Shown here: positions 2,614 to 27,251 of the stretch, piece by piece | Position numbering within the stretch: position 1 is the first letter of the stretch | Layout of the letters: the number at the start of each line of letters is the position of its first letter | Assembly (NCBI GenBank): GCA_033807695.1 | Contig: CM066303.1 | Location: 3,472,001-3,536,000, forward strand | DNA: 64,000 nt | DNA from: Daedaleopsis sinensis | Lineage: Eukaryota; Basidiomycota; Agaricomycetes; Polyporales; Polyporaceae | Direction of reading: 5' to 3' | Notes under the pieces: model-generated | What the model was told of the DNA's origin: nothing | The model's database searches: none | What the model saw: the letters and a program-made list of their open reading frames with translations, nothing else | Program-made: the position numbers and the translations under genes

Positions 2614-3545
2614 CTACGGTAGCACTATGTGAACGTGGCCGGCGGCCTTGTTGCCGTAGTAATGAGCCTCCGCGTCCGCGCGTGTGTCGAAACATTTGTG
2701 CATGTTTCCGGGCACGCGCAGGACGTGGTGCGCCATGTCCACCCATTCTCTCCAGATGCCGACACGCCTCCCGGCGGTGACGACATACCAACGAGTGTGC
2801 ATGTCGTCCCGGGGGGCGATGTACTCGTCTGGTGGTAGATTGTGAGTGTTAGCGAGCGAGTGCGTCTCGTATGACGTCTGGACTCACAGTGGGCAGCGGT
2901 CAAGGGCCCAGCGGGAGCGTTGATGGGCGCGGTGGGTGCCGTGTTCGCGGGAGCAGGAGGAGGAGCTGCTCCGGGCGGTCCGACGGGCTCTTCAACCGGC
3001 TGTTGAACGGGGCTGGTGGGGACGCTCTCGAGACGGGGAGAGGGAATACCCAGGCCATGCAGGAGAGGAGACACAGGAGCTGGGGTAGAGTTGGGGGCGA
3101 CGTTGCCAGAACCCGTGGTGTTGCCGGTGGTCGGGAGAGGAGCTGCGAAGCGCAGGCGCGCGGGGGAGAACTGGGGTGCCCCGACGGCCGGGAAACGCAA
3201 GGCCCGAGGCGCATCCGCATCTTGCGTGGTCTCGGAGGAGGAAGGCATTTGCGCCCCACCCTGGATGACATTGATTGTCACAGGAGTGCCCTGCCCGTAG
3301 ACTGTGATATGAACCGCGCCACGCGAGGGCACGGTGGGGGACTGCGGGTTTCCCGAGTGACCGACGTCGACAGCGGCCCCACCCCCGACCTGGTCTCTGA
3401 TCGAGAGACGCGATAGGTCAGGGAGCCCGTCGCGGGCGGCGGGGAGAGATGAGCCGCCATTAGTGGCGTATGTCGCTGATATCGCAGCATCAGCGGCCGC
3501 AAGCGCCGAGCAGGTGGTTATCGCACTGACCTGCGACGTCGGCAT
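2614..3545 (-). CDS. Protein with C-terminal RNase H1 N-terminal / viroplasmin-like domain
   Basis: Two exons. Exon 1 (3545 to about 2888) encodes a Ser/Pro/Ala-rich, probably disordered region of about 220 residues. The intron has donor GTGAGT and its acceptor ends at 2829. Exon 2 (2828-2614) encodes a compact domain with WYVVTAGRRVGIWREW, then VPGNMHKCF and TRADAEAHY. This is the pattern of the viroplasmin / RNase H1 N-terminal (hybrid-binding) fold, which in RNase H1 binds RNA-DNA hybrids or double-stranded RNA. No RNase H catalytic domain follows, so it is likely a binding protein only. It sits beside a KDZ transposase and is divergent to the gene at 3940, the same arrangement as 16408-17570 with 17925-26134. 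The start codon is the first Met of the open frame; an upstream exon is possible. Family assignment is by pattern and the function is unknown. Confidence 0.72.
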
Positions 3546-3939
3546 GCGACGCTCCTGCGTCCACCACAGGCTTCGTTTCCTGAGTCAGAACGTTGGTGTA
3601 CGCCATAGAGAACGCGTGGGGGGCGAAAATATGGAAGGAACGATGGGGATCGTTGGGGTGGATGGTGAAAACGATGGTCTCTTATACACTGGAGGCACGA
3701 GGTCAGCGGCGGCAGGGCTCGATACTTACCCTGAAACTGCCAGATTGTTCCGTCTTCTGATCACCCTTTCTGATGTCTTGGATTGTTGCTAATACTATTG
3801 TCATCCGTAGGATCTTGTGATAACGGCTCATCAAAGGATAGAAAATGTGCCCGCTACCGTCGTCCTTCTACAACCCACTCCTCTATCTTTTCATCGTCCT
3901 CAACCTCGCTGTCTTACTCGACTTTCTCACCTCTCTCAC

Positions 3940-7760: not shown

Positions 7761-8296
7761 CCCTGGGATGTGTTTCACAACCCTGCCAGTATAGACAGCC
7801 ACTCTCTGTATTACCCTGGCCACGAAGTTATATAATACAGCCCTGGCCACTCCTAGCAACACACTATTAGCAGGTTGGTGGGGTTTTGTAATACAATAGT
7901 GGTAGCCACATGTGCCTTCCATCGATCCGGAGGAAAGCGCATACAAGAATGTGCAGATTTTTATGCTTCAGACCGACATGACACCCCCTTCTCGTGAGTC
8001 CATTTGCCGCATTAAGAGTCTCAGATCGTGTGTAGCTGATTCCCTCTGGAACAGTATTGCTTTGCATTCAGAAGAACCGGCACTCTGTGTTCGCTTCGGA
8101 TGTCACGATAATATCCACTATTCAGGCCATAGTCAGTTCTCATCACAGTCCTATAAAGCTTCGGATTATTAACGTATCCTCCAATCAATGCATATCTGCA
8201 GGAGCCTGCAATGCTTAGCATTCGTCTTGGCGGTCCCGGTCTGTTCTTGTCGTTTGAGGACGGGTATATCCGGGATGAGTTCCTCCAGCAGGTGTT
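7761..8296. other. Flank between minisatellite and left KDZ inverted repeat
   Basis: No convincing gene. The longest frame (7912-8172, plus) has no recognisable domain. This DNA does not match the Ty1/copia sequence found on the other side of the KDZ transposon, so the two flanks do not reconstruct one insertion target. Confidence 0.5.
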
Positions 8297-8691
8297 GTAG
8301 GAATAATGTATCATATACAGGTAGATTGTGTAGCACCTATTACAACAAATACAGGCAGTGCTCCTGATGTAATACACTCTTATGCCTATATGGGGCGGGG
8401 TCCGGGAGGGGGCTTTGGCGACCGCTCGGCACAGCGGCAGCCTTCCTAATTAGGTCAGTGCGCACGCGTGCGCCCGGGCTTTGGGCGGCTACCGTTGGAA
8501 AAGGGTAGAGCGGGCGTCTGGCCTGCCAAATGCGGTCGATGCAGAGCGGCCGGGCGCTACTGTGCCTAAATTGGGCCAGTACACCTGCGCCCTGGGCGGC
8601 TAGCCTTAGGAAAGAGTAGAGCGGGTGTCTGGCCTGCCGAATGCGGTCGATGCAGAGTGGTAGAGGTCGGGTGGGCGTCTGGGCTGCTAAA
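8297..8691 (+). repeat. Left terminal inverted repeat of the KDZ transposon
   Basis: Begins GTAGGAATAATGTATC. It matches the reverse complement of 26442-26826 over its full length with three or so substitutions and a 10-bp length difference near 8650. The inner part contains two tandem GC-rich subrepeats of about 120 bp (from about 8484 and about 8600) sharing GGTAGAGCGGGCGTCTGG-like and GCGGTCGATGCAGAG segments. Such subterminal direct repeats often serve as transposase binding sites; that role is inferred. Confidence 0.92.
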
Positions 8692-8775
8692 TGCGGTCAA
8701 GTGCAGCACAGCCGGTGCTATATCTCCTTCACGGTGGTATAAGTATGATACAGGGATACTGTTAGTACATGTACG

Positions 8776-11700
8776 CTATAATTCAACATCGACAAACAGC
8801 GCGGGGTCGTCCTCAGTCTCCTCAGGCTCCTCTACATGCACGTGGGTCAGGTTCCCTGCCTCCTGCCACTCCTTGTCAACGGTCCAGTTAGGACCCATCA
8901 GTTCCTCCACCTCTGCTCTACAGACTTGAGCACAAGTCGTGCGCATGCGGCGGCGCATCGAGCTCTGTTTGAGCGCATATGAGATTAGGCCCTCGTTCAA
9001 CGCGGCGTCCAGAACCGGTCGAGTGCGAGTGCGCTTCTCCCACTCGTGCTCCTCGTGGAAGTGTGTCGCGAGGACACGGCGTATCTCCTCAGGAAGGAGC
9101 TTGATCTCCTCGTGCCAGCGCATGGTCCGTGCGCGCGCCTTGAGCCACTCGACTCAAAGAGAGTCGATCATCTCGTCCGATCCATTCAGATCTTATGCGC
9201 GCCAGATCCAGGAGATTTTGCGTCGCCCTTCCGCAGGTCCCGGATCCCTGTCGCCACGGTTATGTTGACGCCTCAGAACTGCGGCCGGTTCGTCGTCCTG
9301 AATGCCCCGAACGTCATCGTCTTCGAGAACCTTGAGCTCCTGCTCCCAGTCTCCATGTCCAGACAGCGCGAGCTTGGCACGCCGTCCGACTCGATAACGC
9401 TGCACTGCGCGCCTCTTCCGAGCGTCCTGCGATGAGATCTCTTCGCGCGCGCGCGTGTTTGCGCCCTGATGCCGGACGTGGGTCTTCTTGTAGAGATAGA
9501 GCTGGTCCAGGGCATGCAGCTGATTGCGTATGTCTTGCAGGGCGTCGTGACATTGAGCAATGCGAAGGCGCGCCTCAATCTCTTGAATGCGGGACGAACA
9601 GACAGCGTCGCGACGCGTACTGCTGATTTCGGATGGCAACCCCAGTCGGACCTCCTCGACGAGCTCGACGTCCAATCTGCAGGCTTCATCGTCGCCCAGC
9701 AAGGATATCGCGCGCGGCATGTAGATGGCTTGGAGTTCTCGGAACTTCTGAAGCTTGCGTCGCAAGGCGGTGCGGCGTTCAAACAGGCCGGCGACCTTGC
9801 TTGTGGTCACCTTCTTAGCGTCCTGCTGTATTCGTGTCCTTTGTAGTAATATTAGTGGTGTGTTCGTATTATGTAGCTCATCAGTGTGTCACTTACTTGA
9901 TCTGCTCGAGTTCTAGTCCCATAGAGATGAACCCGACCACGCTGACTTCGTGAAGTGCAACGAAGCCGGGCACCGCGCTAGCTCGTTGCTCCTCGTCCGC
10001 AAGGTCACGCATTGTCTCGGTCTGTGTAGGTGCTGAGATAGTCCATGTAAGTCAGCAGCCATGGTAGCATCAAGATGTGACTCACCCTGCAGCGTGGTCA
10101 CATATGGGTCATCTTGGTTGAACGGGTCGGCTTCCCATAAAGCCACCTGAGTTTCCCATAAGATCAGGTTCTGCGTGTTCCGCAGTGAGTTGGTGAGGTC
10201 TTCGAACTCCTCCAGCTGCTCGCGGTGGGCGTCGCGTGCCTTACGCAACCGGTCGCGCAAGGTCCACGCTGACGACCGGGGCATCACGTCAGCGACGATC
10301 TAGAAAAGACCAAATGTGCGTAACTTACGCATATGCACCGTCTTCCGCCAGTTCGAGTATCCAAACTGGTCTTCAAGAACGCTTTGACGTTGCCCTGGGC
10401 CCATCTGCTTGGTCGCATTGGCGACCGGCTGGATCCACCATCCACGCTCGATCCCCTGCCCATCCGTGCGGGCCGCGCCGACGTGATAGTTGAGAGAATA
10501 TGGCGAGTGTCCCTCACGCTTGTGTGCACGGAAATGCAGCTTGGGGATGACGTACGCTATCGATCCTTCGGGAATTTCGATGCGTAGGTGCTCAGGGAGT
10601 TGCGCAATGCGTTCGAGGAGGCCCAAGGACCACTGGCACGCGATGTCGTAACTGACGATCTTGTTCAGAATGAGGTATCGCCGTATCGCACATACAAAGA
10701 TGTAGTCCATATTAATGTATCTATTTGACCCCTCAGTAACGAACTTTACAGAGGTATAGATGTGAACGACTCACTTTTCGCCCTTCTGAATGTCGCCTAG
10801 TCCGAGCGCTAGCCAGAACTCGTGGCGCGCGCACATTATTCCGCCCACACCGGTCGCGGCGTACCCTCGGGAAAACTTGGTATTTGCGTGATCTACGGCC
10901 GATAAACCTGTGCAAGTGGACAGCTGTGCGCAATGTCAATTCAAGCCTGTAATACATCCAGAAAAGACGACACATACCTCCTTCTGCTCCCCATACGCTT
11001 GCAAGACCTCATGGTAGGCGGTGTCCTCAACGAAGTATCCCCATCCACTTCCTAGGATCGGGTCCTTCTGTTCGTCTGAGACGGCTCGTCGCTTGAGACG
11101 GAAGCATGCGTCGATTGCGACGGTGACCATGTACATATATCTAACAAATGGTACGAAACTATGTTAGTGCCAGGAGAATAAATATAGGAACGAACAGAAA
11201 GACGCACTTGAGATCGTCGGAGACTGTGTCCCAATTGTCTGGGAGGTTGATCCCCGGGTGTGGACACGCCGGACAGTCGACTGCAAGCTCCCCGGGCTGG
11301 GTCCCAAGAACACCGGTCGGGTCGTGCCCTCGGCCGTTGCGCTTCAGTCGCTTGAGGTGCCGCCACTGCGCTACAACGCGTATGAACGCTTTGTAACGGT
11401 CTGCGATCTTCTGAGTGCCCGTGTTGTCTGTCATGCATTCTAGAGCTTGATAGTAGTCGCCCATCGTGACCTTGCCCTGGAGACTCTGTAGATGGTAGTG
11501 TTCGAGCAGGCCGAACGTGAACGCGGTGTTCGGATCGCAGTTGGTCGCCGGCCATAGGTCGTACCTGAGCAGCTGCTGCACGACGGTCCCAGAGCGCGCG
11601 GCGTGATCGCAACCACAGAAGTCGAGCGCGATGAGATGGTGACCGTCGATGTGAATGGCGCAGAAGTCGTCGCGGGATGGGATGGGATTAGAGCAACGGC

Positions 11701-12494
11701 TCGTGTCATGGTGATGACCTAGTTGGATGCGAAGGCCGAGGGCTTTAAGTGTCGTGACCTCGAATGTACGTCCAGTCCACCTCTGGAGCTCAGTTAGAGA
11801 TTATACCAATATATGAGATATAATGTGTCTCACCTTGACCCTGTGGTAAGGATTCGCCTTGTGCGCGGCGACGGCACATCGTTCGCAGAGAAGCGGTCCG
11901 GGGGCGCATGTCGTGCACCGAATGGTAGCCTTCATTGGTGTCGCCTGATCTGGGCATGACATGCACCGTTCATGCGTCGCGAGGCCCCGCCCGTCTCGAC
12001 GGATCATCTCGTCCAAGTACATATCACGTTCCGGTATGAACAACTTCATCGGCTCATCCTATGAGTAGCAAAGACAGATTAGCACGTACTAGCTTGATCA
12101 GGATGGGTGCACATACCGAGCTCATGTACCGACGAGCTGCCTCCGGGCCTCCAGCAGTAGCTCCTTCGGGCGCACCATCCGCATCATCCAAGCCCCAGTC
12201 GTTCAGGGCTGGGTCCCAGTCCTCCCCCTCGAGCTGGAAGGCCCCCGATCCGGACGCTGCCGGTGGATTCGCCGAGGTACCGGCAGGTTGAGATGTTGAA
12301 GGAGTGTCAGAGGGGGTGGGGAGTAAAATTTCTGTGCGGTGGATGCGCCGTCTGTCTTCCGAGACATTGTCGACCGTAAAGTCCCGTGTATTGCGTCTCG
12401 CAGCGTGGGCGGCAGCGGCAGTCACCTCGAAGTCTGCAGAGAGGTCGTCGTTTTGGCGAGTTTTGCGAGCTCGCTTTGCTGGGCGCTGAGACAT
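8776..12494 (-). pseudogene. KDZ-superfamily transposase with CxC2 cluster, two late nonsense codons
   Basis: Multi-exon gene reading leftwards from MSQRPAKRARK at 12494. Seen in order: a basic N-terminus, a CxC2 cluster (CMSCPDQATPMKATIRC, then C-x2-C and H pairs, about 11975-11860), a KDZ core with VAIDACFRLKRR (first Asp, about 11115), GYAATGVGGIMCARH, VSYDIACQWSLG (second Asp, about 10650) and GIERGWWIQPVANATKQMG (catalytic Glu, about 10440). A helical C-terminal region with KISWIWRA and VEWLKARARTMRW ends at 8778. The first about 3.3 kb read open across roughly ten introns. Two in-frame stops, TAA at 9193-9195 and TGA at 9154-9156, then interrupt the otherwise collinear tail, removing about 135 residues. 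Both could come from single C-to-T changes (CAA and CGA). The catalytic core is intact, so activity of the shortened protein cannot be excluded. Confidence 0.85.
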
Positions 12495-12766
12495 ATTGGC
12501 GGGGTAGATAGAGGGCGAGTGATTCTGGGAGGATGAAGGGTGAGCGAGTGTGCGAGCCGGGAGGGTGCTAGTAACGGGTGTGTGAGAGGCAGGAAAACGC
12601 GAGGCGCTGCGGTCACGGGCACCAGCGCTGTGTGACAGGTCGCGTTTAGTGACATCACGCGTCAGTCACGTATATAAATCACGCCCAAACCGTATTCTTC
12701 TGGCCACCTCCGCTTGTTTTCTTCTCTCTTCGTCTCTCTACTCAACACAGTTCCCGCCTGCTATCA
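12495..12766. promoter_or_regulatory. Divergent promoter between KDZ transposase and TET/JBP gene
   Basis: A 272-bp head-to-head spacer. A TATATAAA box at 12671-12678 lies about 90 bp before the TET/JBP start codon. Directly upstream is ATCACGCGTCAGTCACG (12654-12670), and TAAATCACGC overlaps the TATA region. A closely related element, ATCACGCGTTGCGTCAC, lies at 17688-17704 in the other divergent promoter of this transposon. A shared regulator is an inference. Confidence 0.6.
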
Positions 12767-14895
12767 ATGCCTGTCCGAGGTACGTAGCCCTATATCGCAG
12801 TCCCGTCGTGTGCCGGCGCCGTATGTGAGATCCGCCCTTGGATCACTGATGGCGCTCGACGCGCGACGCGACGCATAAACGCTCGACATCGACTAACACG
12901 CGCGATATTGCAGGTCTCCTCGCGCCACAAGTCCTCTCCCCCTTCCGTAAGGTAAGCACGTTATCGGCTTCTTGGTGCAGTCATCATCCAACTCCTGTTA
13001 TCTCCCAGACCCGCTCGGGTCAGGCCTTTTCCCCATGGACCCGCAACATTGGCACCCCCCTTCACGTCCCCGTCGATTTCTCCCTCGAGAAGGCACTCAA
13101 GACGGCGCTAGACGCTGCGAAGGCCGCGCACGCCGACACTTCCTTCGCCGACCAATCAGCTCCCCCAACCACTGACGCTGTGTCCGACCATCCACCCGTT
13201 CACCCCGAAGATCCAGACGAACCAGTTCTAGCGAGCGCGACACTGCCTCCCGACGATGACGGTCCTGTGCATCCCAACAGGATCCAGTCTCTGTTCAACG
13301 GCTTCACGCGTTCCGGGCTGAACCTCGACCTGAAGACCGGCACGGGTGTGGCGCCGCATAGCCCGCGAACTTCCCTCTCTCCTTTAGCCCCCATTCCGAA
13401 AGACACCCGCGAGCGCCCCGCCGATAACCCATCCGCGCGTTCGGCTTCCCTGGACGCGGCCGCTACCGCTCGTACGAAGAAACAACGTGCCAATCACCGC
13501 TCCAAAGCCCATCGTCGCGAGCGCCGCAGTGCTCAGCAGCCCAAGGAGGCCCTCCTGTACCCTGATGGGAAGGGCAGGTCACTGAAGGGTGCGGCGTTGC
13601 GCCAGATCCAGTTTGCGGTCACGTTGATCGCTGATGCCAATCTCGATCACGTCCTTGCGCGCGACAATCAGGCGCTCGCGTCCGAGGCGAGCTCGTCGGC
13701 TCCTATCCAGACAGACCTCAGCCTGAGCAGGGACGACCTACCTCTCACCGCGAGTGCCTACGTCGCGCGCCTCTATCAGCAGAGTGCGCAGGACCGAAGG
13801 CCTATAACCCGTGATGAGGCATGCAGTCTACCGGGGTTTCAGTACGTCAAATGGGACGGGAAGTGAGTGCATTAATCCTCATCCCACGTCGTGATTCTGT
13901 GTCTAACATGTTCACTCCTCTTGCAGAGTCTGCCGCCCGGTGCTGGACGCCGATGACAAGGTAATTACCCTCCTGTGCGGACAACCAAACGACCCCTCAT
14001 ACGAGGCCGTCAACGAGGAGCTGGGGATGATATTCCGGATCCTCGCGTCCTCGTACCGCTTTGCTCGCGCCCGCAAGCCGAACCGTCGCGGCAACTTCGA
14101 GACAATCTCATGTGGGATCTCGTATGGAGGTGGACAGAAGGTTAGTCATTTCTATCCTTTGACTACCGCCCTTACTCACAAGTCTGCAGCGCGTTGGTAA
14201 CTTCGCACTCTCGCACCACAACCAAGAGTTATGGCGAATCGTGCTCACGCTCAAAGCCATTCGTCGTGTGGCCAACTACGCCGACAGTGAGTCCATACTG
14301 TTCGTCTACCATAGAGATCAGTCGCACATCCCTCTCCTGTCGTTCAGCATCCATGCGCATCTTCTTCCCCAACCTGTCCGCGTACTATCATGGGACGCTC
14401 GCCAGCCTGTGCTTCCGGGACAAGACTCTCAAGCGCAACTTCGATGACAATGGTTTCGCCGCCATATCGATCAATCTCGGCCCGCACGCCGTCGCATACG
14501 TACATACAGACCATTTGAACTTGGCGTACGGCCTTTGTGCCATCACCGCGGTCGGCGATTATGACCCTCGGTTTGGGGGCCATCTCATACTCTGGGACCT
14601 TGGCTTGATTATCGAGTTCCCCCCGGGTTCCACCATCCTCATTCCCTCAGCAATCCTACGACACTCCAACACTGCACTTGCTCACCCGGAAGAGCGCCGC
14701 TACGCCTTCTTGCAGTACTCTGCCGGTGGACTCTTCCGATGGGCAGACTGCGACTTCCAGTCGCAGAAGTCCTTCCTCGCCGCAGGGAACAGCATGAAAT
14801 ACGCTGGTAGGGAGCACTGGGAGAAGGGTTTGGCCATGTTCAGCCGCTGGGAGGACCTGAAGGAGCGTCTGCGCGAGAAGGCCACGTCCGGATAG
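12767..14895 (+). CDS. TET/JBP-family 2-oxoglutarate/Fe(II) DNA dioxygenase
   Basis: Enzymes of this family oxidise 5-methylcytosine (some fungal members also N6-methyladenine) in DNA using Fe(II) and 2-oxoglutarate. Six exons fit in phase (12767-12779, 12914-12951, 13009-13862, 13927-14140, 14190-14286, 14348-14895), giving 587 residues. The N-terminal 280 residues are basic and disordered. The catalytic double-stranded beta-helix is C-terminal. It has HTD at about residue 457 (HxD iron ligands), GGHLILWDLGL, PPGSTILIPS, RHSN at about 510 (distal His ligand) and ERRYAFLQYSAGGLFRW (Arg for 2-oxoglutarate). All expected ligands are present and no frame break is seen. It diverges from the KDZ transposase inside the same inverted repeats, as reported for fungal TET/JBP genes. 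The exact substrate cannot be told from sequence. Confidence 0.92.
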
Positions 14896-15468
14896 TTATG
14901 CGCGATATGCAGTTGTATTTCTTGTTTGCATTGTACGAGTACGAGTGCTACTCGAATAGGAGAACATTGGATATCGAATAAGTACCTCGTGAGCTATCAA
15001 GTGTGATGGAGACATTCTCTACTGTGTGATCTGGTGGAAGAGAAGCTAGGATACTACAACTACTGGTCGTACTACATGTTGTCTGCGTACGGGTCTGAGC
15101 GCTGACTCACCGAGCTTCGAGTAGTGGATGTGTACTAGTACAAAACTTCTTGACTATGTCCGTACACAACAATCCCAGTGTGTACGTTATGTCATTCCAT
15201 GACCTTTGAGGTCTTTTTCAGGCCACATTGAGTGGAATAGAACCCAAAACAGTCCTTGTTCACTTTAAGACAGTAAGACGCAGTAAGACGGCGTAAGACG
15301 CCTGGGTGCTGAGCGCTGAGACGCCTGCGAGGCCCCGCAAGCGCCTCGCGCGTCCTCCTTTGCCTCGAGCGGTCACCGTGCCCGCTTCTCTCCCAGGTCC
15401 ACTCACACCGGCTACTACTCGTCTACTGCTTCTTCACGGCGCTCGTCTTGTCAGGTGAACGGCGCGCT
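14896..15468. promoter_or_regulatory. Spacer before the small basic gene, with short direct repeats
   Basis: No gene seen. At about 15265-15305 a short tandem repeat of AGTAAGACG-type units occurs three times (CAGTAAGACG, CAGTAAGACG, CGTAAGACG). It lies about 170 bp before the start codon at 15469 and may belong to that gene's promoter. Confidence 0.4.
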
Positions 15469-16309
15469 ATGTCTTCCATAGCAAGTGTCATAGAAGACGA
15501 CAAGGTCCTACGAGGGAAATTGTTGCGGCAAGCCCGCAACGCACGTTACTACCAGCGCAAGAAACATAAGTGAGTGATGATCTGCTGGGTCCTGCGGAAC
15601 GTTTGCGCTAACTCATCCACAGACCTGTTTCCCTCAAGACTAGGGTATCCCATCCCAATGGGGACTCCTCTGTCCACTCGGATTTGAGGGGTAACAGCGG
15701 CACCAACTCGAGGTCATCCCCGCCAGGTAGCTATTAGTGTACTAGACATTCATACTATCACAGCTGACCACTCTCCCCAATTGCTCCGAAAGTACCCACC
15801 CCGGCGTCGTTGGGGTTGATTATGGCCTCAGCACGCACGCACGCACTAGTAATGCGCAGGTTCGTCACATTCTATGACTCATTGACTACTACTAACATAA
15901 CTCGTTGCTGGACAGGACTCGAGAACGCCTTCTTGCCGTTGAACCAGTGCCATACTGGGGATACACAGGATGTATCGAAGGTCTGAGTGACAAGTTGAGC
16001 GCGTGGGGGTATTCAGAGGATTGGCCGAGCATCGAGGACCGAATCAATCGTGAGTGGCATGACCTGCATCGCGAGGGAGATCCACTGCAACGCACAAAAT
16101 GGTTTGTGGACAAGGAGCATTGGCTACGGGATGGGGATAGGATCTTGGAGCATATCTCACGGCTCTTCCGCGACGAGGACTATTTGAACCAGCTGTCGTA
16201 CGAGGGTATAGGCGAGATGTGGGATGAGCTGTCCGGGGTCATATACCGAGTGATGTACTTCATGTCTGCGGTCGAGGCTAGGCTTGCACTGTACAAGCTC
16301 ACAATATGA
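15469..16309 (+). CDS. Small basic cargo protein of unknown function
   Basis: Four exons join in phase (15469-15569, 15623-15726, 15793-15859, 15916-16309) to give 221 residues. The N-terminus is strongly basic and helical (KLLRQARNARYYQRKKHK), reminiscent of a nucleic-acid-binding basic region. A polar linker follows, then a conserved-looking globular part with PVPYWGYTGCIEGLSDKL, then WHDLHREGDPLQRTKWF, and a hydrophobic C-terminus. I recognise no named domain. It lies between the TET/JBP gene and the double viroplasmin-like gene, inside the KDZ inverted repeats, and is therefore transposon cargo. Splice phases and the lack of stops support a real gene. Confidence 0.65.
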
Positions 16310-16407
16310 GATGGCAACAGGTTGTATGCTCGCGATCTGGGAGAGAGAGAGCAGACAAAAAGCATGATATTCAAACAGCAACATAATTCCGGGCTACATC
16401 GCCTGGT

Positions 16408-17570
16408 TTACTCTGCTACGACCAATTGAGGGATGCCTACCTTCCCAGCCGTGTACTGATACACGAAGTACAGAGCCGCATGGCTGAGAGAGTCGAAGAC
16501 GACCAGCTTCAACCCTGGATTCCACCCAAGGTGGATTAGTGCAGTTACCCTGTTCAATAATACACGTAAGTAACAGTACAGTAACTAAATAATCAGAGCG
16601 TTACCGGTCCATGTAGATGCCCGGATGGTCACCACGAATGACCACAAAGAACTCCCGGTCAGATTCCGATTCAGCCGAAGGCTCTGGAACAGGACGGTAC
16701 GTCCCGGATCCCGAGGCGCGTGGAGGGATCTAAAAACAATAAATACAATCCTCGGGCACCAGTACGATCAGATCGTCAAGATAAGTACCTGAGACTGAGA
16801 CATAGCTCGGGCGGTGCGCCCTTGGGCGGTGGCCGAGCGCGGCTGGGCGGTGTAGGCATCAGCGGGCGCGAGCTCGGAGTTGCGAAGGTGCGGCGTGAAG
16901 GCGGTCCGAGGTGTAATTGTCCCATCGGTGAGAGGAGGGAAGGCATGTAGATATCCGACCGAGAACGCAGACATTGCGGGCGAAGGAGTACGAGAGGGGG
17001 GAGGAGGCGGGCTGTCAAGCTCTGTCTCGTCGTCGCTGCCACTGTCATCCAGCGCCGGGGGCACCAGGCCGGCTGGGATCGAGATGCGAGCGGGGTCAGC
17101 AGGAACCAGGGGGACGTATCCACCTGATTCGCGGTTGCTGGACGCCGCCGACTCCGCCTCTGAAGCGTCGAGGTCGGCCTGAGGGGTCGGTATGGCCTGG
17201 CGTGGACCCGGAGGCCTCCATCGTCCCTCTCTGCCTGGCGGGCCGTCCTCCCAGCCCATGCGTGCTTCAGCAAGAGTGCGGTAACCTTTGTAGCTCGAGC
17301 AGCTGAACCCACAGACCATCGCGTTGGCGAGGCCCCTGTATGAATTGATCGGGGCGATCAGACTGCAAGATATTGCAGTGATGCGGTAAATTTGACATAC
17401 CAGTTATAGAAAAGCCCAAGTTGTCTTCCGCTCCACACGACATAAATTTTGCGGCCCTCTTTTTTGCCGATGGGTATGATCAACCCCTGCCCGTCGTACT
17501 TCGGCATTTCGCCCAGCGATACCGCAGTAGCGTCCCAGTCTCGAATGATCTCGGCCGGAGTAGCAGGCAT
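16408..17570 (-). CDS. Protein with two viroplasmin / RNase H1 N-terminal-like domains
   Basis: Four exons on the minus strand, about 335 residues. The start MPATPAEIIRDWD at 17570 leads to a first domain, IYVVWSGRQLGLFYN, continued after a 38-nt intron by GFSCSSYKGYRTLAEARMGW. This matches the viroplasmin / RNase H1 N-terminal pattern. About 150 Ser/Pro-rich residues follow. The last two exons give a second, weaker copy: FFVVIRGDHPGIYMDR, then GWNPGLKLVVFDSLSHAALYF. It stops at TAA 16408-16410. There is no RNase H catalytic domain. The gene diverges from the cargo gene at 17925, mirroring 2614-3545 with 3940-6394, although that copy has only one domain. RNA-DNA hybrid or dsRNA binding is suggested by the family; the role in the transposon is unknown. 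Confidence 0.7.
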
Positions 17571-17924
17571 TGTGAGTGGACTGGCTTGAACGTTGAAAGA
17601 GAGCTGAGATGAGAGAGGTTGACGGTGGAAGGGAGGATGCAGGGGAGGAGAGAGATGTGGCCATAATCATGCGATCTACGTCGGTAAATCACGCGTTGCG
17701 TCACATGTGTCACGCCGCCGGGTTGTCACGAACGCATACATGACGCGTCTTGTACGCGTTCACCCTCAATCCACACTAGAGCCAGTACCTGGGCAACAGA
17801 TCCGTTATGATTTCTGGTGAGTTCCGACTCTCTTAACGCGCTTGTCTTGGCTTGCACACCAACTCAACTCACATCACCGTCACGCCTACCTCAGCTCCCT
17901 CCCCAAGTCCACTCCGTGCCCTCC
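17571..17924. promoter_or_regulatory. Divergent promoter between viroplasmin-like and cargo genes
   Basis: A 354-bp head-to-head spacer. It contains ATCACGCGTTGCGTCAC (17688-17704) and further CGTCAC/TCACG-type words up to about 17750. The 17-bp element matches the one at 12654-12670 in 14 or so positions. An upstream ATG at about 17810 followed by a donor-like GTGAGT could mark a 5' untranslated intron of the plus-strand gene. Confidence 0.5.
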
Positions 17925-19542
17925 ATGTCCGCTACCGCTCCCAGCCACGACATAGAATTCATCCAAGTCGAGCCCATAGCCCGCAACGGACCATCTAAAG
18001 CCGCGAAGAAGCGTCGCTCCAGGAAGAAGGGAGAGGACACCTCGGGCACGAAGCCGGGGAATCCCGGACACTTCCATGGCCAGCGGGAAGTGTTCCTCCT
18101 CAGCCAACTCCCTGCCTTCATCGCCCTGCGTCGGCGCGGTACGCTCAGCATCACTAAGAAGAACTTCAAGATCGCGCTCTTCGCCAGCTTCTGGAAGTTG
18201 TTCCCGTGGTACGTCCCGCTCGACAAGGAACCGTCCGACTACATCGAGGACCCACCGGACGAAGATCTCGAAGAGGTCCTCGAGCAGAAGGGAGATATCA
18301 TTGAGCTTACTCAGAAGGTATGTGCACATACTATTACACCATTGTCTTACTAACCGTCTTCTCCCAGCGTATTATGTCGCACATGCGATATCTACGCCAG
18401 ATCAACCTGAAGAAGACAAGCAATCCGTACGCAGCACACCTCGAACAGCTCGCTGAAGCAGCGAATCCGTCGTCGTCTCCTCGACAGCTGGCTGACTGGC
18501 AAATGTACATGACCAAGAAGGGCCCTGAAATCGACGCGGAGTTCGCCATGCGCTGGGCCGAAGCCGGCATGCACAGCAAGTATCGCCTCTCCTTCCGGTC
18601 CAAAATCGCGCGCGAGATGCTCAAGAACGAGACTGAAGAGTACCGTGCGGCGCTGGAGGCGGAGGCGGAGGAGCTTCATCTCGCGGACCTCGCAGCCGCG
18701 GAAGAGGAAGCTGAGCGAACGAACGCCACGGCCCCGCCCGACATTCAACAGAGGTATGTAGTCTCTTGTTGTCTGAGTCGCACTCGTCAGAGCTAAGTGA
18801 GCTTAGATGCCGCGACAATATGGCCGAGATCGTGCAGCCTCTGCTTGAGGGACTCAGGAAGCAGACCGGGTTTCACTTGACATTGTTCGCTGGGGTTCCA
18901 TTGAAGGACGGACCACGGGAGTTCCAGCTCAAAGTGTGAGTCATTACTACTATCTCTAGTTTTGACAGGCGAGCACTATCTAACATCCATGGACATATTA
19001 CAGGATCACCGCTGGAAGAAGTGTCGGTCCGACACCTCTTCCCTGGCATCTCGTCGAGAAGGAACCATTCCGGACGGACGTCATGGCCTCTTTCACTCGG
19101 TACCTCACGATGACTGCAGGTCAGTCATGCTCCTATCACTTCCTTGCCTACATTTACTAACAGCTCTGTGTTGACTCGATAGAGTACGAAGAGCGTCAAG
19201 CCGCGATCCGGGGCACCAGCACTCCATCCGCTCAAGAGGATGACACGCCGCGTGCCGCCGCACAGTCCGTGGCGCGCAAGGACAGTGGCCGCAGCAACAA
19301 AGAGTCTGCTACGACTCGCAAGTCGAAAAACAAGACTGTCACGTCGTCCAAGAACAAGGGTAAGGCCAAAGCCACTCCCGCCACCCGAAAGTCCAGACAC
19401 AAGGGAAAGGCAGTCGCCCGAGACAACGAGGAGACTGACGACGACGAATGGTCGTCAGACTCTTCTGACGACTCTTCCGACAACTCTTCCGATAACTCCC
19501 GCCAACAATCGCCCGAGCGATCATCTGCGCGGTCCAAGCTGT

Positions 19543-19550
19543 CGACTGCG
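19543..19550 (+). repeat. Left target-site duplication of the hAT element
   Basis: CGACTGCG, identical to 24628-24635. The 8-bp length is characteristic of hAT transposons. Confidence 0.93.
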
Positions 19551-19806
19551 TAGGGAATGGCAGGGGTGACCCCCCGGGTGTCCTGGACCGTACCCCTACC
19601 CCTACCCCCTCTGTCACCCCACCCCTATACCCCTGTACCCCGAGGGGTGGGGGTACACGGGTAGCAGGGGTAACCCGGGACCCGGCAGCCTATAATACTG
19701 TATACAAGCAATAACATATATGAGTCCTCTGACCGGTATACTACTAGTGCACAACAGTATACTAACAGCGACACAGTGTGCTTCCTGTTCCACAAAGTGT
19801 ACTAGA

Positions 19807-20688
19807 CTAATTTGTAGGACTCAACACTTCAACTAGCTCATCCAGATTCGAGTCCTCGGAGCGGCGGGTGAAAACGCGAGCATGGAGATTGATCCAGATC
19901 TGCGAAATTATAGACTTGTCAGCCTCAAGATATTAGCCTCAAGCGGTATACAAACAGCGCACTGAGAGCAGCTCAGGCTTGGGTATCGGAGAGAGAAAGA
20001 GTCTCCGGACTAGTGATGTGGGGGGAATGCATGGCGAGAAGGGGGAATGCATATGCATGCCAAGAGAGACATTAGAATTGGACATACCTGAAGGTTATTG
20101 TGCACCCACTGCGCCAGAACTCCCCTATCACGAACACTCGTCTGACTGATGTCCACTTTACGCTCGGTGTGACTCATTGCCATGCCCTGTAGCAGCTCCG
20201 TGAGCTCCAGAGGGGTCTTCATGCCCTCGTTCTGACACTCCGTCCGATGGAGGAAGAAATCGCACACATTTGCAAATGCGATCAGCCCGCCGTACTGTAG
20301 GTCCGTGAGGTTCTCTGGCAGGCGGGAAGGGGGAGTCTTGGTGGCGGCCTTCAGAGCTGCTTGCACACGATCTTCGAGCGTATAGATCCAGCGGATAAGT
20401 GCGAATAGGGAGGGAGAGTAGATAACCAGCTGGTGTGGTAGCTGGGTCTGCATGAGTCCGATGATTAGTATCTAGGCAGTGAGTGCCCGGGTACTTTGAG
20501 ATAATCTAATCTGTACTCACCTCGACAGAGACATCCGATTCAGCGTGAGGCTCTACTGGGTGAAGAAGCCGGACCAGGACAGTTTCAATGCGCGTGCCAG
20601 GACGGCCCATCCAGTTATCAGTCTGAAGCTCGAGTTGAAGAGGAGAGTCAAGCATGTGCAGATGATTTCCGGGGAGCGTGTGAGCCAT
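19807..20688 (-). CDS. Second gene inside the hAT element, unknown function
   Basis: Three exons on the same strand as the transposase and downstream of it: 20688 to about 20521, about 20472-20092, and about 19900-19807, giving roughly 210 residues. The start is MAHTLPGNHLHMLDSPLQL. The middle exon contains LVIYSPSLFALIRWIYTLED and a helical segment with LIAFANVCDFFLHRTEC. The end is IWINLHARVFTRRSED, then a TAG stop. Splice sites are canonical and the joined frame is open. No known domain is recognised. It lies fully within the terminal repeats, so it is a passenger of the hAT element rather than of the host gene. Confidence 0.6.
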
Positions 20689-20989
20689 GATAGTCGACGA
20701 GTGTAGGAGGTCAGGAGACGTACAGTCGGACTCAGATTGAAGGTCGCTCAGCGACGGCGACGCCCGAAATTACAACGACGAGGAGACAGCCGCTCAGTCT
20801 TGTAAGGTGCCGATACTTAATCGACTTACTCTCTTGGTTTATGACATCTAATGACCTCGGATTTGCACTACTAGGAGATATCACAATACTACTACTACAA
20901 TGCAGTCGAAACTGATCGTATGTCTACGTACTGCACCGCGCTCCCATCACTAGTATTCGAGCCAGATCGTAATGTGGTTATAGTACATG

Positions 20990-23900
20990 TCAGTCAGCGT
21001 CACTCAGTTCTGCGTCGTCACCGATGGCGTCCCAACCATCTACCATACCATAATCAGACGCATCGTCGTCCACAACTGCAAGCTTGGCAGCGTGACGATA
21101 GTCCTGGGATCGCACCATTCCCTGCAGGGACCACGACCCAAGGCATAGCAGAGCACGAGTAGTCTGTGCGCTGAGGCGGCTGCGGACATGGGATAAGACT
21201 CGCCGTCCTCGGCTGAACACCCGTTCAACGTCGACTGATGTAGCTGTCAAGACTTTGATCAGCAACCTGAGTATCGAGGGAGCGACATCGGATACGCACC
21301 AGGTATCGATAGGTAGTCTAGCGCCATGCGGGAGAGCCGAGGGAATTGGGTTCTGCGATCATCCCACCACTGCAATGCGTCGTCGACATCTTCGACGGGG
21401 GTAGCGAAGTAGCGGGTGATTTCATCCGTAACTGATGCGGACGAAGTCTCCTGACGGCGCGCCTTATTGGCATTGCGCATAGCGTCGAAAAAGTTGCCGC
21501 TGTCTTCTTGTGGCTAGCAATAGGAAGAGGGTGTCAGAGCACTGAGTGGGGCGACTGAGAGACAGCATGCGTTTGATAGGGCACGAATAGGAAGAGCGGG
21601 GAGTAGTATGAGCGAGTGAGTTACTCACCTTGGATGCATTGTCGAGCTCGTCCCGAGTCCTCTTCGCCCCTGCGGAGGTACCTGCAGCCTGAGAACTGGA
21701 AGTAGCGGCGGCCGTGTCGACTCCAGGACGGAGTGCAGCGTAGGAGGCCTCAAATTCTTCCTGCACCATCTCATGGCCCGTTTGGATCCAGCTCTGAGGC
21801 CATCCAGCGTCTTGACAGTAGCTGTCCTTGAGCGCAGGGTGGAGCACTAAACAAACGAGTCAGTTGTATGTGTCTCCATCGCAGGAGACGAACCATACAT
21901 ACAGAGCGCGATACGATATGTGGCAGACATATCCGACAACTTGTAGTACCGGTTAAGGGTCTTCTTCCCAAGGCGCAACGCGGCCCGGATGGCTTCATCG
22001 TAAGTCCACTCATCGCGGGTCTGGTTGGTGAGCAGATTATCGATGTGGTCGATTGCGGGGATGACCTTCGCCAGATTGGGTGTGCCTCTTGAAAAGTAGG
22101 TCGTGCCGTCTTTCAGGATCTGACGTTGTTGATGGCGGACGGCGACAACGATCGCGTGTGGATAGCAGATGCCAGAGTCGCAGAGAGAACAGCGGGCGAG
22201 TAGATGCGTGCAGTATGTGGTGGTGAGAAGGGAGCAACCGCAGCACATCGGGTGGGCGGTTGTGTTTGTGGGTGTCCGTGTGAGCGTGGACAAATAATCA
22301 TATTTGGCCACCACATACCTTCAGTACGTCTCGCAGCTGCTCGGCGATCTGCCACTCTCTTGCAGACAGCTCATACACTCGCAGGCCCGCGTCCCTCTGT
22401 GCACAGATCGCGTCGAACGCCGTCCGATACTTGATAGCGCCATCAAGCATATCGTAACTCGAGTTCCACCGAGTTTTCACATCCCGAGGGATCAACCGAT
22501 CACCAAGGTTGAGGCTCTTCGTCAACGCCCGCCACGCTGGGAGCAGTTTCGTGGTCGAGTGCACAATCTTGAACGCAACCTTGCGGATCTGAGGGACAGG
22601 TAAGCTTCGATTTAACCCCCGGAGCGTTCCCGCGAAGACTTAAATGGACACGCACCTTCACCAGCACCATTTTCACCGGCCGTATCTCATCCTCAAGACT
22701 CTCGCGATCACTTGCGTTCAGGCTCTCTAGCTCGTCGACCCACGACTCGGAATCATCCTCCTCATCCTCCTCTCCCTCGCGAAGATGCTCGTCGGCGGTT
22801 ATGTTCTCCTCGGTGGCGATGTCTTTGGCCAGCTCGAGCAGACGCCGGACGTCGTCGTCTACAATCGCCTCCGGATCCGCGACCTCCTGGACATCGAATT
22901 GGCGGATGATGGACTTGGCTACAAGATTCAAGATGTGCAGGAAGCACCGTGTTCGTGCGTACTGGCCTTGAAAGGCAGGAACGAGCGCGGCGAGCTCATC
23001 CGTCATGGTGTCATTATTGGAAGCGTTGTCCGCGGTGATGCTGAGAATCTGGTCGGGAAATTGGTGAGTCTAGCACTTCTCAGCAATTACCGGGAATGAC
23101 TAACCTTGTGCCCGATTTGAAAGTCGTCAAGAATCTTCGCAAACTCAGCAGCCAAGGTGGCACCGGTATGTGACTACAACCCGACCATCAATACCACCAT
23201 CAGGCATAAATGCAGCCCTGGTACGTACACTGGCTACCTCCACTATATCCAAGAGCATGCACAACGGCTCTCCTTTGTGCTCCAAGTGCACTGTCACCGC
23301 GACAAAGGCGCGATGATTTGGGGAAGTCCAAGCGTCAGTTGCAAAGCTAAGTTTGCCGTCGTAGGTCCTCAACATGTGCGCGATCCGCCTTCGAGTCCTC
23401 GCAAACACGATCTTCACGTCACGCGAAACGGTCGACGGGGAAGGCACGAAGTATCCGGGCCGACCTGTCTTCAGCAGGCTCAGCAATCCACGGTCGCGCA
23501 CAATGTTGAAGGGCCGATCGGATTCGGCACACCACTTCGCGATCTCGATCCTAGCATTCGACACCCGTGAGTGACACTCTTTGCTCACAGACTATAACTG
23601 ACGACTCACCGCTTCTCGATGTCAGTGTGCGCACGGTGGGAGTATGTCACATCTGCGCCCTTCTTGCGCTCGAAGAAGGTCGTGATACTTCCATCCCGAA
23701 GAAGACCTGGAATAATGTTCTTACGGACCTCGTCAGCGTTCTTAGCAAGTCCCGCCTCCTTGACCACCTCAGGCCCCCAACATCTCTTCGCATGGTCGCG
23801 CAGGTTGCTCGTCGAATGGGCGTCCGACGTGTCAAGGAAACGCCGGAGCTTCGAAGTGCACCCCTTGGCCGCACACTTGAATCCATGGTACCGCCGTCCG

Positions 23901-24353
23901 TCGTGATAGCCGATCTCGACATCGTCCTTGTAGAAAGCGTAAATGGGGGCCGTCCATCGCTTGCGCTTCCGCTCTATCTCCCGGTACGTCTATTAATGAT
24001 GTCCAGCCTTAATAGGTCACTGACACACCTAATTCAGCCTCCGAGTCGTCTTCCTGCGCCGCCCCGCCCTCGTCATTCTTGCTCCCTGCCTCGTCCTCGC
24101 TGCCCGAAGGGATATCGATCACAGTACGACCTGCGGCAGCATGTGCCGCTGCCTCCTCCTCGTCCGTCTGAACTGTGGTCCGCCGCTTCTTTGGGGGAGG
24201 GACTTCTTCGACCTCCGAGCTTTCCCCTCCTGGGGACACAACGCGGCGGCGAGCCGAGTGCCGGCTGGAGCTGGAGTTCTCGCTCGACTTGTTCTGTGAC
24301 TTGTCCTTAGACTTTCCTATAGCATTAGCATGTTTCTTCTTCCCTTGAGGCAT
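20990..24353 (-). CDS. hAT-superfamily transposase with BED-type zinc finger
   Basis: Cut-and-paste transposase. From the start MPQGKKKHANAIG at 24353 the first exon is basic and acidic low-complexity sequence. The second (about 23990-23610) holds a BED-like finger, CAAKGC followed by LRDHAKRC. Next come RPFNIVRDRGLLSLL, GRPGYFVPSPSTVSRDVK, and LSFATDAWTSPNHRAFVAVT with the catalytic-core Asp. HTGATLAAEFAKILDDF, ITADNASNND and CFLHILNL follow, then VKTRWNSSYDML. The C-terminal dimerisation region is FPRLSRMALDYLSIP with SVDVERVFSRGRRVLS. It ends at TGA 20990-20992. About nine short introns are needed and no nonsense codon was found in the joined frame, so it may be functional. The motifs are standard for fungal hAT transposases; exact exon borders are approximate. 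Confidence 0.92.
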
Positions 24354-24627
24354 GATTTGTACGGTGTTAGGTCGATAGTCAGAGATCTGCAGCACAGAAG
24401 GCATGCAAATGAAAATATTATTTGTTTACACATGTATTTGTGGCTGACCGAATCCAGCCTGGATCGCAAGCGCTCCAAGTAGCCGACGACGTTCAGTACG
24501 GGTTACGGGTGAGCGGCTACGGGTCCGGGTATCCCCGGGGGTGTCTATAAGTGGTACCCCCACCCGTACCCTCAGGGGTGGGGGTAGGGTACCCCTCCCG
24601 GGTCACCCCTACCCCTGCCATTCCCTA

Positions 24628-24635
24628 CGACTGCG
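24628..24635 (+). repeat. Right target-site duplication of the hAT element
   Basis: CGACTGCG, identical to 19543-19550; directly follows the element's last base. Confidence 0.93.
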
Positions 24636-24959
24636 AGGTCCGAGCCCTCCATCACGCCCTCCACAACGCTGTCGACAGCCCCGAAGGTCTGGGAAAAGGT
24701 CCCGGAAGGCTCTACGATCCCGGCCATCAATGATCTCGGCCTGAGTGTCGCGTCGACTGAGTATCTGAACAGTCTGACGCAGGAAGAGCGTGATGTCCGC
24801 CTGTACTGGATAGGGCGCATGTCATCATTTGCGCGCGGCATGATGCTCACGAAAATCCTTCTCAAGGAGAAGGCCGAGAGGGAGAGGGAGGGGAGACAGC
24901 GTGAAAAGGGACAGGAGTCACAGGCCGGTGGTACGTCGTCCGAGTCTCCAGCCCTCGCT

Positions 24960-25375
24960 GTCCAAGCGTCACAAACCCCCCCCTCGACCACCCCCGCCAC
25001 GTCCGCTGCCCCTGCTCCGCTCGCTGCCCCGCCACGTCCGCTGCCCCCGCTCCGCTCGCTGCCCCTGCCACGTCCGCTGTGTCCGCCGCCCCCGCCGCCC
25101 CCGCCGCCCCCGCCGCGCCCGCCGCGCCCGCTGCCCCCGCTGCTTCCGCCGCCCCCGCTGCTTCCGCCCCGTCTGCTGCGTCCGCTGCGTCCGCCACGTC
25201 CGCTTCACCCGTGGTGCCTGCCACGTCCGCCACGCCCGCCACGCCCGCCACGCCCGCCACGCCCACCGCGCCCGCCGCGCCCGCCGCGCCCGCCACGCCC
25301 GCCTGCCTCGCTGCGCTCGGTACTCCTGCTGCCCCTGCTGCGCTCGCTCCGCTCGCTGCCCCCGCTCGTACGTGG
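24960..25375. repeat. GC-rich coding microsatellite/minisatellite (Ala/Pro-rich)
   Basis: Degenerate repeat of GCCCCCGCC- and CACGCCCGC-type units within the 3' part of the split cargo gene. In the frame of the downstream domain it encodes Ala/Pro/Thr repeats; other frames are open on both strands because of composition only. Two adjacent longer units near 25010-25075 differ by one base at 25030/25031. Confidence 0.8.
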
Positions 25376-26134
25376 TGTACTTTTACCGCGCCACCACCAG
25401 AATGGGGACTTCCTTCGATCATCGTCAACGACGAGGGATGGCCAGCCTGGCTGCGCAAGCCGTTCGATTTTCTCGAGGGCAAGAACTTAGGTGCCATGTT
25501 CAACCACGCGCTAGAGTGGTGGACTGTGCTTGAACATTCGTACAGGTGGAAAACCTCAGTACGTTGATGTTCCTATAATTAGACGTGAGCACATGCTGAC
25601 TTGATGGTGTCTTCAGACCCAGGGCCTATCTTCACAGGACCGACCTGAAGAGATCTTCTTCTGGATCCGTAGCCTTCGGCGCGACCTAGCGAAGGTGCCA
25701 AAAATCGCGGACAAGGTGAAGTATGCGACCTCGTGGTGGAAATGGTGGACAGGCTTACAGCCTCCCTGGCGTGAGCTGGATAGCAACGGTACGCTGGTGA
25801 TCGGTGGACAAGGAGATTGGGAGCAGCTGAGGAAGCCGGGCCAGAACGGTCTGCTGATCGTCCTGCTCTCGCTCGGTTGGTGGAAGGGTGTTGTGACGAC
25901 GCAGACCGAGGCGCAGTGGGTAGCTGCTACAGCAGACGTAGCGTGGGTCATCTCGGCGATGGCTACTCAATTGCCGTCAATGAGCGAGGAGTCTCGGTGA
26001 GTCACCAAGCGCATATGTTAGATTTGTGTCTAATGTGCATATTTAGTAAACGATCAATCGACGACGAGGACAGTGACAACATCACTGTTGGGAAGACTGC
26101 ATCGCGTGCTGCAAAGAAGCCTCGCCGTCGGTAA

Positions 26135-26441
26135 GGTACCTCAGCCAGAATGTTCATCGGGTGTATACGACGTTGTCAGGCTCGTCAACTCGTTTGTCAC
26201 CATGGTCTTTCCTTCTGTCTTTTCGTCCTATGCTCCCCCCTGCGCCGGCAGTCCCTCTTTCAGCTCTCTTTGCTTCACTACTGTTGCACTGCGCGCAGGA
26301 TAGACTACATGTGCTTGATGTATGCTACTATTCCGCTATGCATAATGGACAATCAGTTGCTACGAGCTAGTGTGCGTCAAGCTGCACTCCAATTTGGTAG
26401 TTTAGACGCCTTTGGTGAACCTGGTGCTCATGTGCGACACC
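26135..26441. other. 3' flank of split cargo gene, inside the KDZ element
   Basis: Pyrimidine-rich sequence between the TAA stop at 26132-26134 and the right inverted repeat. No gene or repeat recognised; probably 3' untranslated DNA. Confidence 0.5.
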
Positions 26442-26826
26442 TTTAGCAGCCCAGACGCCCACCCGACCTCTACCACTCGCATTCGGCAGGCCAGACGCCC
26501 GCTCTACTCTTTCCTAAGGCTAGCCGCCCAGGGCGCAGGCGTACTGGCCCAATTTAGGCACAGTAGCGCCCGGCCGCTCTGCATCGACCGCATTTGGCAG
26601 GCCAGACGCCCGCTCTACCCTTTTCCAACGGTAGCCGCCCAAAGCCCGGGCGCACGCGTGCGCACTGACCTAATTAGGAAGGCTGCCGCTGTGCCGAGCG
26701 GTCGCCAGAGCCCCCTCCCGGACCCCGCCCCATATAGGCATAAGAGTGTATTACATCAGGAGCACTGCCTGTATTTGTTGTAATAGGTGCTACACAATCT
26801 ACCTGTATATGATACATTATTCCTAC
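26442..26826 (-). repeat. Right terminal inverted repeat of the KDZ transposon
   Basis: Reverse complement of 8297-8691 apart from a few substitutions and a 10-bp deletion. The outer end reads GATACATTATTCCTAC, the complement of the left end. It is followed directly by Ty1/copia coding sequence. Confidence 0.92.
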
Positions 26827-26828
26827 CA

Positions 26829-27251
26829 CAGCTAGTGTTCTTCGTCTCCAACGCCGCCGTCAGCTGGTCCTCGAAGAAGCAGCCGTCCTGCACTCAGTCC
26901 AGCACTGAGGCAGAGTACATCGCGATGGCCTCATCCGCCAAGGAGGCCCTCTGGTTCCGCACGTTGTTTGAGGAGCTGGAGGAGATCGCGACGGACTCGC
27001 CCGGGCAAGGCACGCTGCTCCTCGTCAACAACCAGTCGGCCATGGCTGTCGCGAAGAACGCCACTTTCCACGATCGGACGAAGCACATTGCCGTTCGTCA
27101 TCATTTCATTCGAGATCAGATCGAGGATGGCAACCTCCGTGCGGAGTACGTCCCCACCGACGACCAGATCGCGGACGTCCTCACCAAGGCCCTGGCCCGC
27201 GAGAAGTTTCACAACTTCTGTGTTGACCTCGGTCTAGTTGATTTGGACTAG
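26829..27251 (+). pseudogene. 3' fragment of a Ty1/copia polyprotein (RNase H end)
   Basis: Reads FFVSNAAVSWSSKKQPSC, STEAEYIAMASSAKEALWF, HDRTKHIAVRHHFIRDQI and YVPTDDQIADVLTKAL, ending GLVDLD and TAG at 27249-27251. This is the C-terminal RNase H region of Ty1/copia Pol. The motif that is normally DNQ.A in this family reads NNQSAMAVA, so a conserved acidic residue is lost. The 5' part of the polyprotein is absent: the KDZ inverted repeat abuts it, and the sequence left of 8297 is not copia. It is truncated and most likely dead. Confidence 0.88.

Follow-up and report, generated by a model that had tools for sequence, protein, structure and literature searches.

A multi-gene KDZ transposon of Daedaleopsis sinensis with long inverted ends and a remote relative of TET/JBP dioxygenases

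An association between KDZ transposases and TET genes in basidiomycetes was reportedly described by Iyer and colleagues in PNAS in 2014. A locus with such a pair and additional genes raises the question whether the whole set moves as one element, and what kind of dioxygenase it carries. The locus considered here is located on a 64,000-nucleotide stretch of the Daedaleopsis sinensis genome (contig CM066303.1, positions 3,472,001 to 3,536,000; hereafter the window), where a CxC2-KDZ transposase (g1), a TET/JBP-like dioxygenase (g2), and three further genes (g3 to g5) are enclosed by inverted repeats at window positions 8286..26837. This stretch, denoted element A, is a true multi-gene transposon. 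Judged from its sequence, it is quite likely a Kyakuja-like cut-and-paste KDZ transposon of about 13.5 kb, consisting of a transposase with core helpers and an added TET-g3 module for modification of its own DNA. For a specialist, the points of interest are its divergent dioxygenase and the modularity of its genes.

Element A comprises 18,552 bp, or 13,467 bp without a nested hAT transposon and one copy of the hAT target duplication. It extends from CAGCAG, starting at 8286 on the transposase side, to CTAGTG (CACTAG when inverted), ending at 26837 on the g5 side. The left terminal inverted repeat (TIR; 8286..8691, + strand, 406 bp) harbors internal sub-repeats, and the right one (26442..26837, - strand) measures 396 bp; 8290-8645 aligns with 26478-26833 at 99%, and 8655-8691 with 26442-26478 at 100%. 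A sequence-only reading of the window had proposed nearly identical repeats of 395 and 385 bp at this place. The alignments bear this out, the difference in length being a single 10-bp indel, and comparison with the ends of other copies shifts the true ends outward by about 10 bp. The same reading had postulated a delimited element of about 13.4 kb without the hAT, and precisely this is found in copy B, a duplicate of A about 113 kb away that has the same flanks, 13,458 bp, and no hAT. The hAT itself is real: it lies inside g5 (19551..24627, - strand, 5,077 bp), is identified by Pfam Dimer_Tnp_hAT (E 1.9e-6) and its junctions, and is bordered by the 8-bp target duplication CGACTGCG (left copy 19543..19550, + strand; right copy 24628-24635), at a site that is uninterrupted in B. 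The window copy and its sister B would have arisen by a recent segmental duplication, after which the hAT would have broken g5 of the window copy. Because of this broken g5, the window copy is probably not autonomous. Paired matches and common flanks point to a segmental duplication on contig C4 (approximately 3437k-3500k and 3552k-3608k, shifted by about 113-115 kb) that includes A, B, and neighboring KDZ elements. The two copies differ by 24 substitutions and one 9-bp indel; of these substitutions, 20 are concentrated in a 236-bp stretch of g4 (17311-17546), where A is the odd copy and copy C agrees with B in protein; the cluster suggests a gene-conversion tract.

The left repeat was searched against the genome (51.6 Mb, 24 contigs), and the copy counts from this search are lower bounds. 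At least 21 matches were obtained, 19 of which are ends of gene-bearing elements, namely A, B, C, D, E, Fin, Fout, G, H, I, and J (C11:1088506); in D, g5 is the only gene of the set detected. The remaining two are an end on contig C3 without an adjacent KDZ match and a weak 45-bp match on C10. Apart from these two matches, the repeats are not scattered over the genome without genes between them, nor do the copies stop at different points: all 11 elements with a readable end share the polar six-base termini, CAGCAG next to the transposase and CACTAG next to g5. B, E, G, and Fout (the latter counted without its nested element) are 13.5-13.8 kb and I is 13.3 kb in size; Fin (17.9 kb) and H (38.9 kb between end matches) are longer, and C is without the KDZ-side end. 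Since the two arms agree at 95-99.5% over alignments of 398-530 columns in all seven copies with both ends (A and B included), chance inverted repeats are excluded. The end of A is only 69-78% alike to those of more distant elements. Exact 7-bp target site duplications (TSDs; ACTCCCG, GCTGAGA, and GATCTCG) were found at E, Fin, and H, i.e. three of the seven independent elements with both flanks. Fin is nested in Fout, within the dioxygenase gene of the latter. A query of 800 made by joining the Fout flanks without Fin matches G from 341 to 731, through the junction, at 69.8%, which reveals an empty site; with small gaps, the joined flanks also match E through the junction. Common ends and, in several copies, target duplications are thus present, as expected of a KDZ superfamily transposon. 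The CxC2-KDZ transposase would recognize the inverted ends of about 400 bp and insert the element with 7-bp duplications.

The transposase gene g1 (8779..12494, - strand) is an approximate model of about ten exons made on copy B, with the start codon read from the frame. The spliced model matches KDZ (PF18758, E 1.2e-50) over its full length and CxC2 (PF18803, E 1.1e-36), both above the Pfam cut-offs, and thereby combines the KDZ transposase domain with the CxC cluster expected of the superfamily, in accordance with its original assignment as a CxC2-KDZ transposase.

Whether the companion genes belong to the transposon was addressed by searches of the same genome with six gene parts of the set, which were compared by place. 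The TET-like exon yielded 31 rows, corresponding to 30 places after merging of two adjacent rows on contig C1. At 19 of the 30, g3 follows downstream in the same orientation, 1.0-1.9 kb away, and all 19 elements have the g5 N-terminal part further downstream, at 3.4-4.2 kb in 18 of them; g5 of the outer element of H was assigned by eye, beyond the nested element. In 15 elements, the transposase gene lies 2.75-3.2 kb away in the reverse orientation; in the other four, the opposite-strand KDZ match is further off, for Fout being that of the nested Fin and in the remaining ones presumably owing to inserts. The order KDZ(-)/TET-like(+)/g3(+)/g5(+) is kept in these 19 elements, so that the further copies for which the sequence-only reading had proposed a search do exist. 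Conversely, 19 of 20 g3 matches are near a TET-like match, and the g4 exon matches (8/8) are on the opposite strand between TET/g3 and g5, seven in the 19 elements and one in a further element on contig C3 that has TET, g4, and g5 and no g3 match. No g4 was detected in E, F, G, and I. Among the 34 matches of the g5 C-terminal part, 19 are in TET-like elements (the outer element of H again by eye), 11 in compact elements described below, and four in neither. Ten TET-like places are without g3 and without g5. A third architecture is found at C2:670138, C4:4264854, and C6:3055658, where a window-type dioxygenase is accompanied by a CxC2-KDZ match about 5 kb off in the same orientation, with g3 and g5 giving no match.

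The coding sequences appear to be under constraint, with pN/pS values of 0.10-0.50 in 38 of 38 pairs over five exons; copy I was left out for KDZ (its piece was not located), g3, and the g5 N-terminal part. For the pair G and Fout, the least saturated in four of the five exons, the ratio of nonsynonymous to synonymous substitution rates (dN/dS) is 0.04 for KDZ, 0.07 for TET, 0.17 for g3, 0.20 for the C-terminal, and 0.31 for the N-terminal part of g5. These data bear on the alternative of a simple KDZ transposon, in which the other four genes would be host genes or other repeats caught by chance or co-duplicated. A and B have their flanks in common and would amount to one event on their own, and the eleven compact KDZ-g5 pairs without TET would also suit such an origin. 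However, elements whose alignable DNA has diverged by 25-35%, and that are located on several contigs with different flanks, keep gene order and orientation; moreover, the g4 exon matches are confined to these elements (8/8), and pN/pS does not exceed 0.50 in any tested pair. A chance association is accordingly very improbable, and the idea of genes caught at random between repeats was rejected on account of the recurrence of the set. Several observations detract from the picture of a mobile multi-gene element: the TSD of copy I is imperfect (5/7 bases), the flanks of A/B, Fout, and G show no TSD, and synonymous divergence (dS) is saturated in most pairs. In addition, A/B, E/Fin, and probably C4:65500/C4:3332327 are near-copies of each other, so that the independent cases are fewer than 19.

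How does this element relate to known systems? Complete TET-bearing Kyakuja elements with 7-bp TSDs and CA..TG ends were published in December 2025 (Kojima, 2025; PMC12730594). The suggestion of the sequence-only reading that the element may be undescribed is therefore half right: the carrier type is in print, and g3 to g5, long TIRs in Kyakuja, and the window type of dioxygenase are not mentioned in the main text and legends of that paper. In common with TET-bearing Kyakuja, as portrayed there, the family of element A combines a KDZ transposase with a TET-type dioxygenase, has 5'-CA..TG-3' ends and 7-bp TSDs, and, coming from a polypore, lies within their host range, the Agaricomycetes including Polyporales. 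It differs by its TIRs of about 400-530 bp from Kyakuja-1/2_LB, two L. bicolor families without TIRs, an absence that the text does not give as a rule for all Kyakuja (PMC12730594). Long TIRs alone are not new, because KDZ TIRs are described in two further reports (PMC8290104; PMC12810828). KDZ1 of Cryptococcus neoformans is an approximately 11-kb KDZ element with long TIRs (241 bp) and observed mobility; unlike element A, it has CxC1 instead of CxC2 and 8-bp TSDs, and the relevant passages mention no TET (PMC12810828). In the mushroom Marasmius oreades, KDZ and Plavaka elements are known, with the KDZ TIR motifs characterized in a supplementary figure and no companion genes in the relevant passages (PMC8290104).

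The second question concerns the dioxygenase. Gene g2 (12910..14892, + strand, approximate) encodes a divergent TET/JBP-like 2-oxoglutarate- and Fe(II)-dependent dioxygenase with HTD and distal RHSN motifs in its last exon (about 14346-14892). The sequence-only reading had called it an intact TET/JBP enzyme; the kinship stands at the remote level of profiles, and the canonical type does not. With Pfam Tet_JBP, the best copy of the window type among those listed scores 13.9 bits and the window exon 12.3, against a curated cut-off of 34.9. Of all families, Tet_JBP alone was matched by two or more of the five copies scanned (3/5 at E 1 or better). The same genome has 22 other, canonical TET/JBP loci over the Pfam cut-off, all at 1.3-2.4 kb from a CxC2 match on the same strand, which by their sequence context constitute a second TET-bearing KDZ group. 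A profile of ten of these loci, fetched and aligned, matches CcTet at E 1.6e-26. Compared by hhalign with this canonical profile, eight untouched window-type translations give a probability of 84.3, an E-value of 7.2e-6, and a score of 42.6, with HxD aligned on HxD, the GS turn aligned, and the distal His on the distal His. The best of 60 column shuffles reached a probability of 12.4, an E-value of 0.0023, and a score of 27.1, and a reversed profile an E-value of 0.18; the g5 profile, as an unrelated control, gave 0.42 and 0.74 against the two dioxygenase profiles. An earlier comparison with eight typed spliced rows yielded E 1.5e-5 (at best 0.011 in 30 shuffles). The HxD...H facial triad that characterizes the TET/JBP superfamily is thus present in the hhalign alignment; the double-stranded β-helix (DSBH) fold itself was not confirmed by a model. 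CcTet (PDB 7vpn, 7w5p, 8jkk) is therewith a remote relative by way of the canonical genes, with HxD and distal His in both; the window type has no detectable sequence match to it, whereas the canonical paralogs do match.

Several results count against this reading of the dioxygenase. None of the five copies scanned reached the Pfam cut-off, and an earlier profile comparison with five typed spliced rows was weaker (probability 47, E 1.9e-4). An AlphaFold2 model of the core exon failed (predicted local distance difference test score, pLDDT, 39.6), and a single-sequence search of the PDB returned no match at E 0.1. A PDB search with the window profile gave only chance matches (E 0.39-0.78), and the core none at E 10. 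In copy I, HTN replaces HTD, and a stop codon lies within the dioxygenase exon of copy C. The weak Pfam scores, the missing PDB match, and the failed fold would be expected of another DSBH oxygenase acting on protein or RNA, and the controls of the profile comparison comprised no other DSBH family. Given an alignment of HxD, GS turn, and distal His well above the shuffled, reversed, and unrelated-profile controls, and the recurrence of Tet_JBP, unlike any other family, among the five copies (three at E 1 or better), an origin outside TET/JBP is regarded as unlikely, albeit worth keeping in mind.

Still less probable is an ordinary AG-type TET/JBP enzyme that produces 5-hydroxymethylcytosine like CcTet. 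A Kyakuja-like carrier in a basidiomycete agrees with such an assignment, as in the published elements (PMC12730594), and so does the presence of HxD and distal His. The scores below the Pfam cut-off in five of five copies do not, nor does the fact that the canonical genes of the same genome, which match CcTet, belong with another KDZ group. Furthermore, according to the text of PMC12730594, the Gly/Ser331 and Asp337 places are conserved in AG-type Kyakuja enzymes, and Asp337 is essential for activity on 5-methylcytosine (5mC) in CcTet. The window type keeps neither and has Asn and Cys at these places in all eight rows; the canonical rows have Asp337 in 10/10 and Gly/Ser331 in 9/10. The PE type does not apply either, as HxD instead of HxE is found in seven of eight rows (HTN in copy I). 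In terms of sequence, g2 is best called a divergent, remote TET/JBP relative that is not of the canonical AG type. More tentatively, it might lie outside the PU, AG, and PE types altogether and form a multi-protein module with g3, the RNase-H1-N protein (hybrid-binding-like), and the DNA-binding-like g5, with a chemistry or substrate unlike that of the canonical TETs of the sibling lineage.

Not all related elements carry the dioxygenase. A compact relative without TET and g3 precedes element A in the window (756..6394, no strand assigned) and consists of CxC2-KDZ(-), an RNase-H1-N gene(-; 2665-2790), and g5-like frames(+; 3811-4650 and 5603-6394), of which the C-terminal one matches g5 and the 3811-4650 frame is assigned by position only. 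Inverted ends of this element within the window are limited to one 21-nt pair of 81%, regarded as fortuitous; the left end of the element may be beyond the window. Contig C4 has four such copies, which the segmental duplication links as two pairs. Eleven of the 34 g5 matches are compact KDZ-g5 pairs, 4.6-6.5 kb apart and without TET. Among 17 Cauli_VI matches, ten are located 1.5-1.9 kb from a CxC2 match on the same strand, and these are accompanied by an opposite-strand g5 at 2.9-3.7 kb in eight cases, at 17.6 kb in one, and by none in one. This linkage without TET implies that both kinds of element have KDZ(-), an RNase-H1-N gene(-), and g5(+) in common, the TET-g3 pair being located between KDZ and the RNase-H1-N gene in one of them. 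We infer that the RNase-H1-N genes of both kinds are orthologous. TET-g3 hence looks like a module within a KDZ/RNase-H1-N/g5 core, added between the transposase and the g4-g5 part. It is conceivable, if somewhat doubtful, that TET was ancestral in the lineage and that the compact elements are derived by loss of TET-g3: loss is easy, and g4 already escapes detection in E, F, G, and I. Compact g5 is, however, only 29-36% identical to window g5, compared with 47-59% for most TET-like elements, which is consistent with an older split in an unrooted tree.

Since g5 and the RNase-H1-N gene occur with KDZ even in TET-less elements, they may be regarded as core helpers, the RNase-H1-N protein where present, and most likely bind nucleic acid. 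In the favored model of a transposon with an added module, the TET-like dioxygenase would oxidize methylated bases on the DNA of the element itself and so allow escape from host silencing; such an anti-silencing oxidation is its most likely, predicted role. An escape from methylation has also been proposed for TET-bearing Kyakuja (PMC12730594). CpG content speaks against this role: observed/expected values are 1.04 for the TET-like and 1.08 for the compact element, and given this likeness there is no sequence sign of protection. CpG depletion with TpG excess is seen in I (0.87), C (0.88), and, less so, Fout (0.95), with values of about 1.0 in A, B, E, and G; the pattern in C, I, and Fout is as decay of methylated CpG would leave it. 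Within a single fungal genome, two KDZ groups carry TET-like enzymes that differ between the groups, and a compact third kind carries none; this amounts to a natural experiment on the benefit to a transposon of having a DNA-modifying enzyme of its own. As the window enzyme is without the residue reported essential for 5mC in CcTet, its substrate is a testable question, and the recurring companion genes suggest that KDZ transposition, a poorly understood process, may need more than a transposase.

The small protein encoded by g3 (15442..16306, + strand) is basic over a stretch close to its N-terminus; it matches none of the Pfam families above the cut-off, and one homolog was found. Gene g4 (16768..17570, - strand, intron about 17336-17400) was previously read as a double viroplasmin-like protein; the spliced model retains the domain, an RNase-H1 N-terminal (viroplasmin-like) one over the Pfam cut-off (E 9.9e-10), in a single copy followed by a long tail. 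The large, WW-rich protein of the sequence-only reading is g5 (17925..25997, + strand), whose W-rich C-terminal domain holds up and whose gene is interrupted by the hAT in the window copy and continuous in B; the C-terminal domain follows a helical N-terminal part with an HMG-box-like stretch and a disordered middle. Searches that scored only the candidates with most words in common found two g5 homologs, and five once the words came from the N-terminal part only. Relatives of g3 and g5 in Daedaleopsis nitida have locus tags two apart and contigs of equal length. The AlphaFold2 model of a full-length g5 relative (mean pLDDT 55) is confident at about 41-130 and 161-225, and a Foldseek search with it returned nothing at E 0.001; overall, g5 looks weakly DNA-binding.

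Around element A, the right flank (26838..27251, + strand) is the last part of an RNase H frame of Copia type; this assignment was made by eye, and a Pfam scan at 0.1 returned no match. The end sequence had no match in a plasmid collection, which is uninformative for a fungus. Between the compact element and element A, units of about 93 bp are repeated in tandem (6913-7835). Several direct repeats, each kilobases long, occur in the remainder of the window (27651-64000), among them 30081-34073 and 41574-45584 at 97%; they are possibly nested long terminal repeat elements.

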